From Candidatus Cybelea sp. (lineage in GTDB: Bacteria > Vulcanimicrobiota > Vulcanimicrobiia > Vulcanimicrobiales > Vulcanimicrobiaceae), in assembly GCA_036489315.1 (NCBI GenBank), contig DASXFZ010000060.1:62001-126000 (forward strand): a DNA stretch of 64,000 nt, in the 5' to 3' direction. Made by a program: the position numbers and the translations under genes. This document shows, in pieces, positions 3,810 through 7,220 of this stretch. Below the pieces are notes generated by a model, which did no database searches, was not told where the DNA came from, and saw only the letters and a list, made by a program, of their open reading frames with translations. Positions within the stretch are counted from its first letter, which is position 1; each line of letters starts with the position of its first letter.

Positions 3810-5033
3810 TTAGAAGGATGGTAGTCTCCCGCCCTTATTGAGTAAGGTCCCGAACCGGACAGGAACCTCGATAATGGGCGGCTCTTGTTCTTCCAAAGCC
3901 TTTCGCAGAATGTTTCCGGCGGTCTTAGCGGCGCGTTTCTTCATATCGTCGAGGACGTGCGCGTAAGTTGTCATTAGGAGCTTCGTGCCTTTATGCCCGA
4001 GCAGGTGCGCGACGGTAACTAGGTCCTCTCCGGCAAACAGCATGAGCGTCGCGAACGTGTGGCGGAAGTCATACAGGGTCATGCTGTCAATACCGGCCTT
4101 GGTCGCTATCGCAGAAAGGACTCTATTCAGGTTCCTCAGGTTGACGGGAACCGGAGCGGCGTCTTCTCGGGACTTTACGGAGAAGATAAGGCCCTGAGTG
4201 GGTTTGCCCAACGCCTTCCATCTATACTTCAAGAGGTCAAGGGCCTCGGCTTCCACTCCGAGCGTTCGGGCAGAAGCTCCGGTCTTCGTCCTCTTTCGAA
4301 CTAGGCGTGTACTGTTGGCGGACTCACGTCCGAGGCTCGCCCGAATCGAGACACTGTTCGCCGAGAAGTCAACGTCACTCCATCGCAGCGCGCAAAGCTC
4401 TCCGGGGCGTGCGCCCGTCGCCAGAGCGAGACGAAAGAACGGCTCCCACTTGTTACCTTTCGCGGCCTTGAAGACTCGCGCCAGTTGGGCCTTCGTGAGG
4501 GACCGAATCTCTTTGACGTGCGTTACCCGCTCGGGGTCCATGAGTTCGACCGGATTGGATTCGAGGAGCTTCTTGCGAATCGCGGTGCGGAACATCAGAT
4601 GAAGAACGGAGCGAATCTTTTCGCGGGTAGCCGGTCCGACGGAGACGTATTTGCCGTCCTTGACGGGGCGCACGTTCATTTCCCCCAGCGGTCGGAGAAT
4701 GACGCGCAGGTCGTTGTCATTGACCTCGCGCAAGGGTTTATCAGCGAGCCGCTCGCAGTGGACGTTGATGACGTTTGCGCGGCTCAGGTACGTTGCAGGT
4801 GCCACTCTGAGGCGCTCCGATTCGAGCCACTCTTTGGAGTACGTGCCGAACGTCACGTCGTTCGCGGGGGTCTGCTTCGACTCGGCCTTGTACTCTTCGA
4901 CGGCTTTGAGAACGGCGGTCTTCGTTCGTCGGGTGATTATCTTCGGCGTCGCGTTACCGTTAGGAATACGCGCCTCCCAACGACCGTCTACGCGGTGACG
5001 CAGTGTGCCTTCGCCCTTCGCTCTTCGTGCCAT
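3810..5033 (-). CDS. int: Tyrosine site-specific recombinase (phage-type integrase)
   Basis: 407 residues, usual length for the family. The N-terminal 45 residues form an arm-binding domain (GEGTLRHRVDGRWEARI), followed by a SAM-like core-binding domain and the catalytic domain from about residue 175. Catalytic residues seen: Arg in GARPGELCALRW, Lys in KRTKTG, Arg in YDFRHTF (the first His of the usual HxxR is Tyr), His in LLGHKG and Tyr in TTYAHV. The gene reads away from tRNA-Val(GAC), which ends 140 bases upstream of its start, the standard layout for integration into a tRNA 3' end. Base composition is lower in GC than flanking host genes. Confidence 0.96.
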   Translation of the reverse strand: MARRAKGEGTLRHRVDGRWEARIPNGNATPKIITRRTKTAVLKAVEEYKAESKQTPANDVTFGTYSKEWLESERLRVAPATYLSRANVINVHCERLADKPLREVNDNDLRVILRPLGEMNVRPVKDGKYVSVGPATREKIRSVLHLMFRTAIRKKLLESNPVELMDPERVTHVKEIRSLTKAQLARVFKAAKGNKWEPFFRLALATGARPGELCALRWSDVDFSANSVSIRASLGRESANSTRLVRKRTKTGASARTLGVEAEALDLLKYRWKALGKPTQGLIFSVKSREDAAPVPVNLRNLNRVLSAIATKAGIDSMTLYDFRHTFATLMLFAGEDLVTVAHLLGHKGTKLLMTTYAHVLDDMKKRAAKTAGNILRKALEEQEPPIIEVPVRFGTLLNKGGRLPSF

Positions 5034-5076
5034 TGCGGCGTCGATTCGTTCAAGGGGGCCGCCGGAACCTGCTGCG

Positions 5077-5098
5077 ATAAGTGGTCAATAAGTGGTCA
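5077..5098. repeat. Perfect tandem 11-bp repeat between integrase and tRNA
   Basis: Two adjacent identical copies of ATAAGTGGTCA occupy 5077-5087 and 5088-5098, 43 bases upstream of the integrase start and 75 bases from the tRNA 3' end. This is where integrases of this type bind arm sites and excisionases bind tandem repeats. The role is inferred from position. Confidence 0.7.
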
Positions 5099-5172
5099 GG
5101 GCAGAAATCGGGCCTACAGAAAAGGAAGCGGTCAAGATATGAAAAAAAGCCTGTGACTACGAGCCTTTTCGA

Positions 5173-5247
5173 TGGTGGGCGGTATAAGGATTGAACTTAT
5201 GACCTCTTCCGTGTCAAGGAAGCGCTCTCCCACTGAGCTAACCGCCC
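5173..5247 (-). tRNA. tRNA-Val (anticodon GAC), probable attachment site
   Basis: A full cloverleaf on the minus strand with encoded CCA (5173-5175) and discriminator A at 5176. The anticodon stem CTTCC/GGAAG encloses the loop TTGACAC, giving GAC. The T stem is AT-rich (ATAAG/CTTAT). Its 3' end faces the integrase at 3810-5033, so the attachment core is probably within its 3' half. No second copy of that 3' segment is seen in bases 1-5170, so the other boundary lies outside the window. Confidence 0.95.
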
Positions 5248-5267
5248 GCGGCGCCTGTGCGCGTCGT

Positions 5268-5283
5268 CTGCGAAGGTTCGCAG
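5268..5283. promoter_or_regulatory. 16-bp palindrome upstream of tRNA-Val and of the 29-codon gene
   Basis: CTGCGAA-GG-TTCGCAG is a perfect 7-bp inverted repeat with a 2-base centre. It lies 21 bases upstream of the tRNA on the minus strand and 27 bases upstream of a -35 box on the plus strand. It looks like a dimer-binding operator, but no regulator can be assigned. Confidence 0.4.
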
Positions 5284-5309
5284 CCTGGCGTTTCGGACCT
5301 TCCCGGCGT

Positions 5310-5359
5310 TTGACAGGGCCTGCGCGTGCGTGATAAAGTGGCGCATATCACTCGCACGC
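5310..5359 (+). promoter_or_regulatory. Strong promoter with an overlapping dyad, for the 29-codon gene
   Basis: TTGACA (5310-5315) is followed after 18 bases by TAAAGT (5334-5339), which is preceded by TG at 5331-5332 as in an extended -10. An imperfect inverted repeat, GCGTGCG-TGATA (5324-5335) against TATCA-CTCGCACGC (5346-5359), covers the -10 box and the probable start of transcription. A repressor could bind there. Confidence 0.65.
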
Positions 5360-5374
5360 CGCTAAGGAGGCACG

Positions 5375-5464
5375 ATGAAAATTAACCGTCAGCTTCCCCG
5401 GACTACGTCGAATCAGGGCGTAGGGTCGCTGTGCGTTGGACCTTCGGAGAGTGGACCGATCTAG
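5375..5464 (+). CDS. 29-residue small protein of unknown function
   Basis: ATG with a perfect AAGGAGG at 5364-5370, four bases upstream. The product begins MKINRQLPRTT and ends in SESGPI; one Cys at position 20, no membrane segment. It is framed by its own promoter (5310-5359) and terminator (5488-5522), so it is a one-gene transcript of about 175 bases. Base-pairing of GGAGGC in the ribosome site with GCCTCC in the terminator arm is possible. The transcript might instead be a regulatory RNA and the reading frame accidental. It lies on the chromosomal side of tRNA-Val, outside the integrative element. Confidence 0.5.
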   Translation: MKINRQLPRTTSNQGVGSLCVGPSESGPI

Positions 5465-5487
5465 GCATCGGTTTCGTAAAGTCTTCG

Positions 5488-5522
5488 AAGGCCTCCGCAA
5501 GAATCGGGGGCCTTTTCATTTC
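5488..5522 (+). terminator. Rho-independent terminator of the 29-codon gene
   Basis: A 10-bp stem AAGGCCTCCG / CGGGGGCCTT with one G-U pair and a 7-base loop is followed by TTCATTT. It lies 24 bases after the stop codon of the small gene. Confidence 0.85.
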
Positions 5523-5563
5523 CCAGTTTTCCTGCAAAATCTTCAATAAAAATGAGGCGAATT

Positions 5564-5761
5564 ATGGATCTTTGGATTCCAAACGAAATCCGGATTCGCC
5601 GTGACGATGCTCTGGAAAACGCCCGCTGCTCGCGGCTTGCACGCCTCGCAGCAGACGGTCGAAGTTTCAGGACGCGCATCCGCATCGCTGAGCTCGCCGA
5701 GGCGATGAGCGATGTGCTGGCGGCGGTGGCACGCAGCCTGCGAAACGGTGAAGCCGTCTAA
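5564..5761 (+). CDS. Small helical hypothetical protein
   Basis: 65 residues. The ATG at 5564 is preferred to the ATG at 5552 because GAGG lies 6 bases before it. It starts MDLWIPNEIRIRRDD and the second half is a continuous amphipathic helix (IRIAELAEAMSDVLAAVARSL). It ends two bases before the stop codon of the convergent TPR gene. No family is recognised; the regular composition and the ribosome site support a real gene. Confidence 0.5.
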   Translation: MDLWIPNEIRIRRDDALENARCSRLARLAADGRSFRTRIRIAELAEAMSDVLAAVARSLRNGEAV

Positions 5762-5762
5762 G

Positions 5763-7220
5763 TCAGGGGAAGTCGGCGCCGGCCAACGTTGTGTCGGCGC
5801 CCTTCCACAAATCGTTGAAACGCACTCGCGCGCGCTGCGCGGCCGCATTCTGCCCGGCCGCGGTTAGCGCCGTAGCTAGGCCGTAAAGGGCGCGCGGGTC
5901 GTTCGGGTACGCGGCGAGCGTCTGCGTAAACGCAGCGATCGCTGCGGCGTTATCGCCGCGCCGAAGTTGGAAGAACCCGAGCGCTTCGCCGGCGGGAATC
6001 AGTGGGATCAGCTCGCCGGAATACGTCGCGGCTTGGTTATCAGCAGCCTGCGTGAGCAGGCGCTGCGCATCGCCGTATTTCCCTTTTGATTCGGCCATGC
6101 GCGAGAGAAGGAACTGCGGCAAGTATCCATGGTTCGAACCGAGTGGGAGATGGGTGACAGCGCTGGTCGCTTCAGCAGCACGGTTCAGATGCAGGGCCGA
6201 AAGTCCGCGGACGCTGGGATTGCCGTAGGATGCCTCAGGTGCGGCGTAGGCGCTTGGATAACGGCCGAAGCGCAGCGCCGTCAAGGCGCCGAGACTCGAG
6301 TTGTACGCTCCGCTGATGCGTTGCGACCACAGGCGAGCGGTCTCGTAGTTTCCGAGCATGAGGGCTGCCGAGTAGCCGACCATAATATCGTGCTTTACGT
6401 AGCGGTTCGCGTGCTGGGTTCCGGCAGGCGTCTCTTCCAGCTTCTGCAGCGCGTCGTAGGAGCGTTCGCTCGAAGCGAGCGCAGCGGCGTAATCTCCCGT
6501 CTCGATCCAATAGTGCGCCGGCATGTGCGTGAGGTGTTCCGCTTCAGCTGGAAAGGCGGCGGCGTCGAGGCGCTGCGCGCACGGAAGGGCGGGCCGGCGA
6601 TCGGGAGCGAGGTCGTAGATGTGTACGCAGAGATGGTTCGCCATCGGGTTACGCGGGTCACTTTGCAAAACGGCCCGTACGAGTTCTAGCGCGGTTCGGG
6701 ATTCGTCGCTCGAGAGCTGTCCGTTCTGCCAGTTGAGGCCACCATGTTCCAGCAGCGCCTCGGCCGCGAGCAACTTTGCGTTCTCGTCGTTTGAGGACTG
6801 GGCGAGCGCGAGCATCGCAGTCCGATAGGCCGCGTCGTCGTGTTGCCAGTCCGCAAACGTTCCGGCGTAGCGCGTCGCCATGATTTCGAGGTACTTCCGG
6901 TCGCTCGGCGACGCCCCGGCTTCCAAGGAGACGGCGTGCCGGATGGCGCCCTGCGCCGCGCCAAACTGCGCGGCGGTGAGCGGAGTATTGAGGTCGGGCC
7001 CGTCGGCGAGGGCGATTCCCCAGCCGGCCATCGCGAGGCCCGCGTCGCGCGACGCAGCTTCTTCAAAAGCTCGCGCCGCTTCGTCGCCGTTATACGCATA
7101 ATAAAGGAAGAGGCCCCGGTCGATCGCCGCCTGTGCGGCCGGAACGTTCGTCGATACCGGGAGGTGAACCGAGGCAGCCGCCGCTACCACGACGGCAATC
7201 ATCAGGGTGGGAAGGGTCAC
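5763..7220 (-). CDS. Secreted tetratricopeptide-repeat protein
   Basis: 485 residues from the GTG at 7220. GGAG lies 11 bases upstream, and longer frames would run backwards through two tRNA genes, so they are rejected. An N-terminal hydrophobic segment (LMIAVVVAAAASV) is a likely signal peptide. The mature part has repeated TPR-like helical pairs. It includes the YAYNGDEAARAFEEA and MAGWGIALADGPDLN motifs typical of a widespread TPR family of unknown function, and C-terminal TPRs (AIAAFTQTLAAYPNDPRALYG). It probably acts in the periplasm or at the cell surface as a protein-binding scaffold. It stands alone, convergent with the small gene at 5564. Confidence 0.85.
   Translation of the reverse strand: MTLPTLMIAVVVAAAASVHLPVSTNVPAAQAAIDRGLFLYYAYNGDEAARAFEEAASRDAGLAMAGWGIALADGPDLNTPLTAAQFGAAQGAIRHAVSLEAGASPSDRKYLEIMATRYAGTFADWQHDDAAYRTAMLALAQSSNDENAKLLAAEALLEHGGLNWQNGQLSSDESRTALELVRAVLQSDPRNPMANHLCVHIYDLAPDRRPALPCAQRLDAAAFPAEAEHLTHMPAHYWIETGDYAAALASSERSYDALQKLEETPAGTQHANRYVKHDIMVGYSAALMLGNYETARLWSQRISGAYNSSLGALTALRFGRYPSAYAAPEASYGNPSVRGLSALHLNRAAEATSAVTHLPLGSNHGYLPQFLLSRMAESKGKYGDAQRLLTQAADNQAATYSGELIPLIPAGEALGFFQLRRGDNAAAIAAFTQTLAAYPNDPRALYGLATALTAAGQNAAAQRARVRFNDLWKGADTTLAGADFP

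Follow-up and report, generated by a model that had tools for sequence, protein, structure and literature searches.

A probable ribosome-controlled transcription attenuator ahead of a small arginine-rich protein gene in Eremiobacterota

Transcription attenuation by leader peptides was elucidated in model bacteria that grow in culture, and the Eremiobacterota are a largely uncultured phylum, mostly known from metagenome-assembled genomes. The closest described case to the locus reported here is duf1127-1 of Sinorhizobium meliloti, where translation of a 29-aa upstream open reading frame (uORF) keeps the gene for a downstream small Arg-rich protein off; the attenuation is relieved by tetracycline, and induction is also seen with chloramphenicol (PMC12218461). 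This system has been proposed to sense ribosome availability, and a short RNA containing the uORF has been seen; it has no working intrinsic terminator, Rho being proposed instead, and one attenuation element lies at uORF codons 3–10 (PMC12218461). In the mycobacterial ilvB1 leader, a ribosome at the uORF stop codon masks the antiterminator and the intrinsic terminator forms, whilst stalling gives readthrough; mycobacterial whiB7 is induced by stalling in its own uORF (PMC13236596). In Bacillus subtilis, transcription attenuation with a uORF is described for vmlR, whose product, an ABCF resistance ATPase, guards against antibiotics directed at translation; pausing of RNA polymerase, attenuation of translation and (p)ppGpp are described as extra layers (PMC9226507).

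Here we describe a locus within a 64,000-nucleotide stretch of DNA (hereafter the window, meaning the whole stretch analysed) from a soil bacterium of the phylum Eremiobacterota, in which a 29-codon frame probably serves as leader ORF in a transcription attenuator under ribosome control, lying ahead of a gene for a 65-aa protein. As in duf1127-1, a uORF of 29 codons precedes the gene for a small Arg-rich protein; unlike duf1127-1, an intrinsic terminator and a co-varying antiterminator strand at codons 17–25 are predicted, and the target has no DUF1127 match in Pfam-A or NCBIfam. As in ilvB1, a ribosome reaching the uORF stop is proposed to favour the intrinsic terminator, although the branched-chain codons (LVVI) and enzyme target of ilvB1 have no counterpart here, in that no regulatory codon run was found. 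The whiB7 target is a transcription factor, whereas the target here is an uncharacterised small protein; the likeness to vmlR lies in transcription attenuation with a uORF, and the difference in a target which is not an ABCF ATPase. Mechanisms of this kind are already known; what is new is the family of the target protein, together with the seeming absence of regulatory codons. The case, which parallels the recent Sinorhizobium DUF1127 system, attaches leader-peptide attenuation, supported by co-variation, to an unannotated family of small proteins rather than to a biosynthetic or resistance gene.

Architecture of the leader and its downstream gene

The predicted parts of the locus are listed in Table 1. 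An earlier note on this sequence had described a stand-alone mini-gene with a consensus promoter overlapped by a dyad, a perfect ribosome-binding site, a 29-codon frame and a strong terminator. The promoter, the Shine–Dalgarno (SD) sequence and the complete frame are all present. The promoter matches the consensus at 10 of 12 positions and is the sole promoter-like match in 4800–6200 (shuffle mean 0.2); a promoter-like pair with at least 9/12 matches lies upstream of the uORF in 35 of 43 leaders, with an exact TTGACA in 24 of the 26 close ones. Most of the 43 leaders also have an SD-like site before the uORF, which is ambiguous in two of them (L143 and L144). A partial dyad (GCGTGCGTGATA..TATCACTCGCACGC, 5324–5359) does span the -10 box and the transcription start region, but relatives retain only traces of it, so a role as an operator is uncertain.

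Table 1. Coordinates of the predicted features in the window
Feature	Position	Strand	Basis or remark
Divergent tRNA-Val(GAC)	5173..5247	-	Syntenic neighbour in most relatives
Sigma-70-type promoter, TTGACA-18-TAAAGT, TG before -10	5310..5339	+	Sequence, promoter scan
TTGACA box	5310-5315	+	
TAAAGT box	5334-5339	+	Spacer 18 nt
SD AAGGAGG of leader ORF	5364..5370	+	Sequence; found in nearly all relatives
Leader ORF (uORF) MKINRQLPRTTSNQGVGSLCVGPSESGPI, 29 codons	5375..5464	+	ATG 5375, stop TAG 5462-5464
Hairpin A, within uORF	5405..5421	+	Predicted fold and helix co-variation
Antiterminator 5′ strand GGTCGCTGTGCGTTGGACCTTCGGA, uORF codons ~17-25	5424..5448	+	Duplex test and co-variation
Hairpin B GGACCGATCTAGGCATCGGTTTC, contains uORF stop codon	5453..5475	+	Predicted fold; variable among relatives
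Antiterminator 3′ strand TTCGAAGGCCTCCGCAAGAATC	5484..5505	+	Overlaps terminator 5′ arm and loop
Intrinsic terminator: stem GGCCTCCG/CGGGGGCC (5490-5512), then T-tract TTTTCATTTC	5490..5516	+	
SD-like GAGGCG of 65-aa gene	5554-5559	+	
Target gene, 65-aa Arg-rich protein	5564..5761	+	ATG 5564, stop 5759-5761

The intrinsic terminator between the uORF and the target, recognised from sequence and predicted fold, consists of a 9-bp hairpin (about -15.5 kcal/mol) and a T-tract; both are conserved across the family and occur in all leaders examined. To call it strong, as had been done, is somewhat overstated, because the tail falls short of the 5 T in 8 bases that our simple terminator scan requires, which is also why the hairpin is absent from that scan.

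The unit does not stand alone: almost all of the relatives examined carry a conserved 65-aa gene behind it, in the same orientation. The small transcription unit, which escapes length cut-offs, does appear genuine, and the guess that it might be a regulatory RNA came close, except that the element belongs to the 65-aa gene as its 5′ leader and is no free mini-gene. In the window this gene (MDLWIPNEIRIRRDDALENARCSRLARLAADGRSFRTRIRIAELAEAMSDVLAAVARSLRNGEAV) starts 47 bases past the T-tract; the corresponding distance is 31–47 nt in 25 of 26 leaders and 89 nt in the remaining one (L036), which leaves little room for a separate target-gene promoter in most relatives. A promoter-like match of even 8/12 occurs in this interval in only two of the 26, the window included.

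The 65-aa protein contains 12 Arg and no Lys (pI 9.9), and is predicted by AlphaFold2 to form one long helix (pLDDT 84.6, pTM 0.40). It belongs to no Pfam or NCBIfam family, and these scans show no resemblance to an enzyme or transporter; PHROGs scores are weak, with nothing convincing amongst them. The DUF1127 profile gave no match in Pfam-A scans with HMMER filters at E limits of 10 and 1, nor was one found in NCBIfam. Searches with the small protein against plasmids (tblastn), and with the single protein against genome contigs, likewise returned no match.

Competing helices and the proposed mechanism

Codons ~17–25 of the uORF (consensus GGGTCGACGTGC..TTGGACCTTCGGA) are complementary to the 5′ arm and loop of the terminator (CGAAGGCCTCCGCGATCGACC), and are a better partner for the terminator arm than the SD sequence with which it had been suggested to pair. 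The predicted antiterminator overlaps the terminator, is mutually exclusive with it, and co-varies with it across relatives. Co-variation was counted in the 14 near leaders only, because MAFFT misaligns distant leaders; the latter were assessed with an alignment-free test which compares the duplex of each leader with its cognate terminator to that with swapped terminators.

In the near leaders, the antiterminator together with hairpin A contains nine pairs changed on both sides, against a mean of 3.1 in shuffles, of which 1 in 500 reached as high a count; 87% of cells are paired, compared with 31–45% when the strands are slid by 1–3 columns. Hairpin A taken separately has 82% of cells paired and two pairs with two-sided changes in this alignment; it is weak in the window and reads ACGCCG/CGGCGT in most relatives. 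The stem of the terminator is nearly invariant amongst the same 14 leaders.

The duplex test gave a mean of -33.5 kcal/mol for cognate pairs and -27.4 kcal/mol for swapped pairs over 26 leaders (0/20000 permutations), and -31.4 versus -26.5 kcal/mol (0/20000) for the 13 members from outside the genus alone, in permutations which do not fully remove phylogeny; shared ancestry, and not pairing, could account for part of the identity in codons 17–25. In the window itself the antiterminator is one of the weaker cases (z -2.05), with the terminator ranking 18th of 26 for its leader. For validation, uORF starts and terminator positions were chosen by eye in 17 more leaders before pairing was tested, and two near-duplicates (L144, L153) were excluded; the 15 remaining, very divergent leaders again preferred their cognate terminators (-28.7 versus -25.3 kcal/mol, p=0.0006), whilst a control region (5′ UTR/early ORF) in the same leaders showed no such preference (z -0.1). 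Several of these independent leaders (L072, L073, L147) had no significant cognate pairing in this test.

The frame itself is kept. It is 24–46 codons long in the 43 leaders, where it intervenes between the promoter and the target gene, and its stop codon lies 21–43 nt (mean 29) ahead of the terminator. Each of the family's 26 leaders has its first in-frame stop ending 20–40 nt upstream of the terminator, for which base-shuffled sequence gives an expectation of about 0.08 per leader.

In the mechanism we propose, the nascent RNA would form either the antiterminator, from uORF codons ~17–25 and the terminator 5′ arm and loop, or the terminator. A ribosome that trails the polymerase as far as the final third of the uORF would melt or cover the antiterminator 5′ strand; with that strand masked, the terminator, starting 21–43 nt past the stop, would be free to form and the target would be off. 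Where no ribosome initiates, or one stalls within approximately the first half of the frame, the antiterminator would be left to form, resulting in readthrough and expression of the 65-aa gene. A terminating ribosome at the stop codon would cover part of the antiterminator strand, not the terminator.

This was modelled at folding equilibrium by sliding the ribosome, represented as a crude unpaired mask, along the uORF and refolding the remainder. For the 14 near leaders, the mean modelled terminator probability is 0.1–0.2 with the A site 18–26 codons before the stop, 0.9–1.0 from 13 to 1 codons before it, and falls to 0.64 when the ribosome sits precisely on the stop. The window's own leader has values of at most 0.2 at codons 2–12 and ~1 from codon 17 on. 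For the family's 12 more distant leaders the averaged model prefers the terminator in each state considered, so that a kinetic (co-transcriptional) argument is needed there. The footprint model, the spacing of the stop and the scarcity of promoter-like sequence together suggest that efficient translation would lead to termination and failing translation to readthrough; we infer that the 65-aa gene would be switched on by impaired translation. The signal is most likely general translation capacity, as reduced by inhibitors or by a shortage of ribosomes or charged tRNA. Since the anatomy of the attenuator predicts the on-state of its gene, it offers a testable hypothesis, translation stress, for proteins which homology cannot annotate.

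Alternative readings of the leader

The same anatomy would serve an amino-acid-specific attenuator of the trp/ilv type, in which an early codon senses one charged tRNA and the 65-aa protein takes part in the physiology of that amino acid. Thr is the commonest residue of the stall zone, occurring at least once in 39 of 43 leaders, a tRNA-Val gene adjoins, and a weak model match in another genome (L109 in G060) has Cys/Met codons in its leader and a substrate-binding-like target. The stall-zone residues are mixed, however, with Thr at 11%, which no amino acid exceeds, and Val at 7%; just 17 of 43 leaders have two Thr side by side, and no run of regulatory codons for one amino acid is conserved in the stall zone of the 43. 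Neither is the 65-aa target like an enzyme or transporter, and we consider this explanation unlikely. General translation capacity is the likelier signal, because no amino acid dominates the stall zone.

We also give little credence to translation-dependent control of the opposite sign, or through another device such as Rho, with the hairpin secondary. The S. meliloti duf1127 case, uORF-dependent without a working intrinsic terminator and for which its authors favour Rho (PMC12218461), is a precedent, but the hairpin and T-tract found in every leader examined here, and a competing helix which co-varies with the hairpin, argue for attenuation at an intrinsic terminator.

The earlier note had also raised the possibility of a functional microprotein, and the good SD, a frame intact in all relatives and a GPSE motif recurring near the peptide C-terminus within the genus could be taken to mean that the 29-aa peptide acts in trans, with the terminator merely ending its transcript. 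In the uORF, codon positions 1/2/3 are about equally diverse (0.40/0.36/0.38; 0.44/0.49/0.46 for codons 2–10), as opposed to 0.24/0.19/0.40 in the 65-aa gene, where the pattern is, at the sequence level, the signature of a selected protein; we rejected the trans-acting peptide on this ground, there being no purifying selection on its sequence or codon positions. The peptides are unalignable beyond close relatives except for the recurring Pro-Ser codons, CCTTCG, which are themselves the paired antiterminator strand, and a microprotein gene would leave the downstream gene without a promoter in most relatives. With frame and stop position kept and the peptide variable, it seems to be translation that counts, and apparently not the peptide; we regard this reading as very improbable. 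The comparison across relatives proposed earlier for telling peptide from RNA falls on the side of RNA: the pairing co-varies and the peptide is not conserved. What looks like a 'microprotein with full expression signals' can turn out to be a regulatory leader, and codon-position diversity set against pairing co-variation tells the two apart.

Barely credible is a small RNA or SD-sequestration switch in which CCTCC of the terminator arm would bind the GGAGG of the same leader, or else other mRNAs: the window does hold 6 bp of complementarity (GGAGGC/GCCTCC), and a terminated leader of ~170 nt would be expected as a short RNA under any attenuation model, yet predicted SD–arm pairing is ~0 in 25 of 26 leaders and 0.14 in one, the SD is unchanged where the arm is altered to GGCCCCCG (L034, L037) or GACCCTCG (L044), and Rfam yields no family at gathering score, only sub-threshold matches (at E 5, the best has 21.4 bits against a cut-off of 50).

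Distribution and neighbouring elements

The layout of the window recurs across the class: it is identical in 26 leaders of one family, the window counted, with the same architecture in 17 more distant ones, the common order being promoter, uORF, terminator and small gene, in most cases next to a divergent tRNA-Val(GAC); this recurrence goes beyond chance. When 60 related genomes were searched at the DNA level, the region turned up in members of the window's own genus and family. Ten relatives share the order of promoter, SD, 26–30-codon frame, hairpin and 63–65-aa protein, mostly with the tRNA-Val(GAC) gene, and a genus-level alignment search returned eight named Candidatus Eremiobacterota loci, all metagenome-assembled. 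The leader occurs once in the window's genome. Within the family, a protein search found the 65-aa protein in 31 of 99 genomes, and the genus members without a match are incomplete genomes (63–79% complete); the matches of a class-wide profile search fall almost entirely within this family.

Diverged relatives at other loci and in a sister family (L071–L074, L112, L113) also lie behind a leader frame and terminator, as do 11 of the 12 distant profile matches fetched, so the module is wider than the tRNA-Val locus. Judged by their sequences, these diverged small proteins may be homologous or merely alike in composition; profile scores are weak. It is possible, though somewhat less likely than not, that there is a class-wide Eremiobacterota module, an intrinsic-terminator attenuator that lacks regulatory codons and reads translation capacity itself, which would control a fast-diverging family of Arg-rich helical proteins of ~50–75 aa with a role in the response to translation stress, functionally parallel, and not detectably related, to alphaproteobacterial DUF1127.

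More diverged small proteins in sister family f3 and elsewhere (L142–L149) are also found behind a leader frame and terminator, and several of this set end in a motif like RVARALLxxGYLLLDAGHSLE. Covariance-model matches weaker than E 0.001 were spot-checked by eye: L109, L112 and L113 resemble genuine leaders; L114, L115, L118 and L119 fall within apparent coding sequence and were put down to chance. At L109 (G060:C25:17870-17992) a leader frame, MSNLHVMCHMCLVPAPDRRRLASRISK, is followed by a terminator and a gene for an ABC substrate-binding-like protein; the Cys/Met codons of the frame point to an attenuator that responds to sulfur.

A different species of the genus (L041, genome G016) has integrase-like sequence directly adjoining this tRNA-Val; there, the tRNA is apparently followed by the second half of the 65-aa gene, with the leader and the gene's first half missing from between them, which may reflect either a deletion or an assembly error. 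In the window, a phage-type integrase (3810–5033, minus strand; Pfam PF00589, E 7e-21) lies just inside the tRNA-Val gene. Forty-nine bases identical to the 3′ half of this tRNA gene (window 5172–5220) occur at G000:C60:43541-43589 (L155), about 23.6 kb leftward on the same contig; an integrative element of ~23.6 kb probably occupies the tRNA-Val gene, with its right end at about window position 5172.
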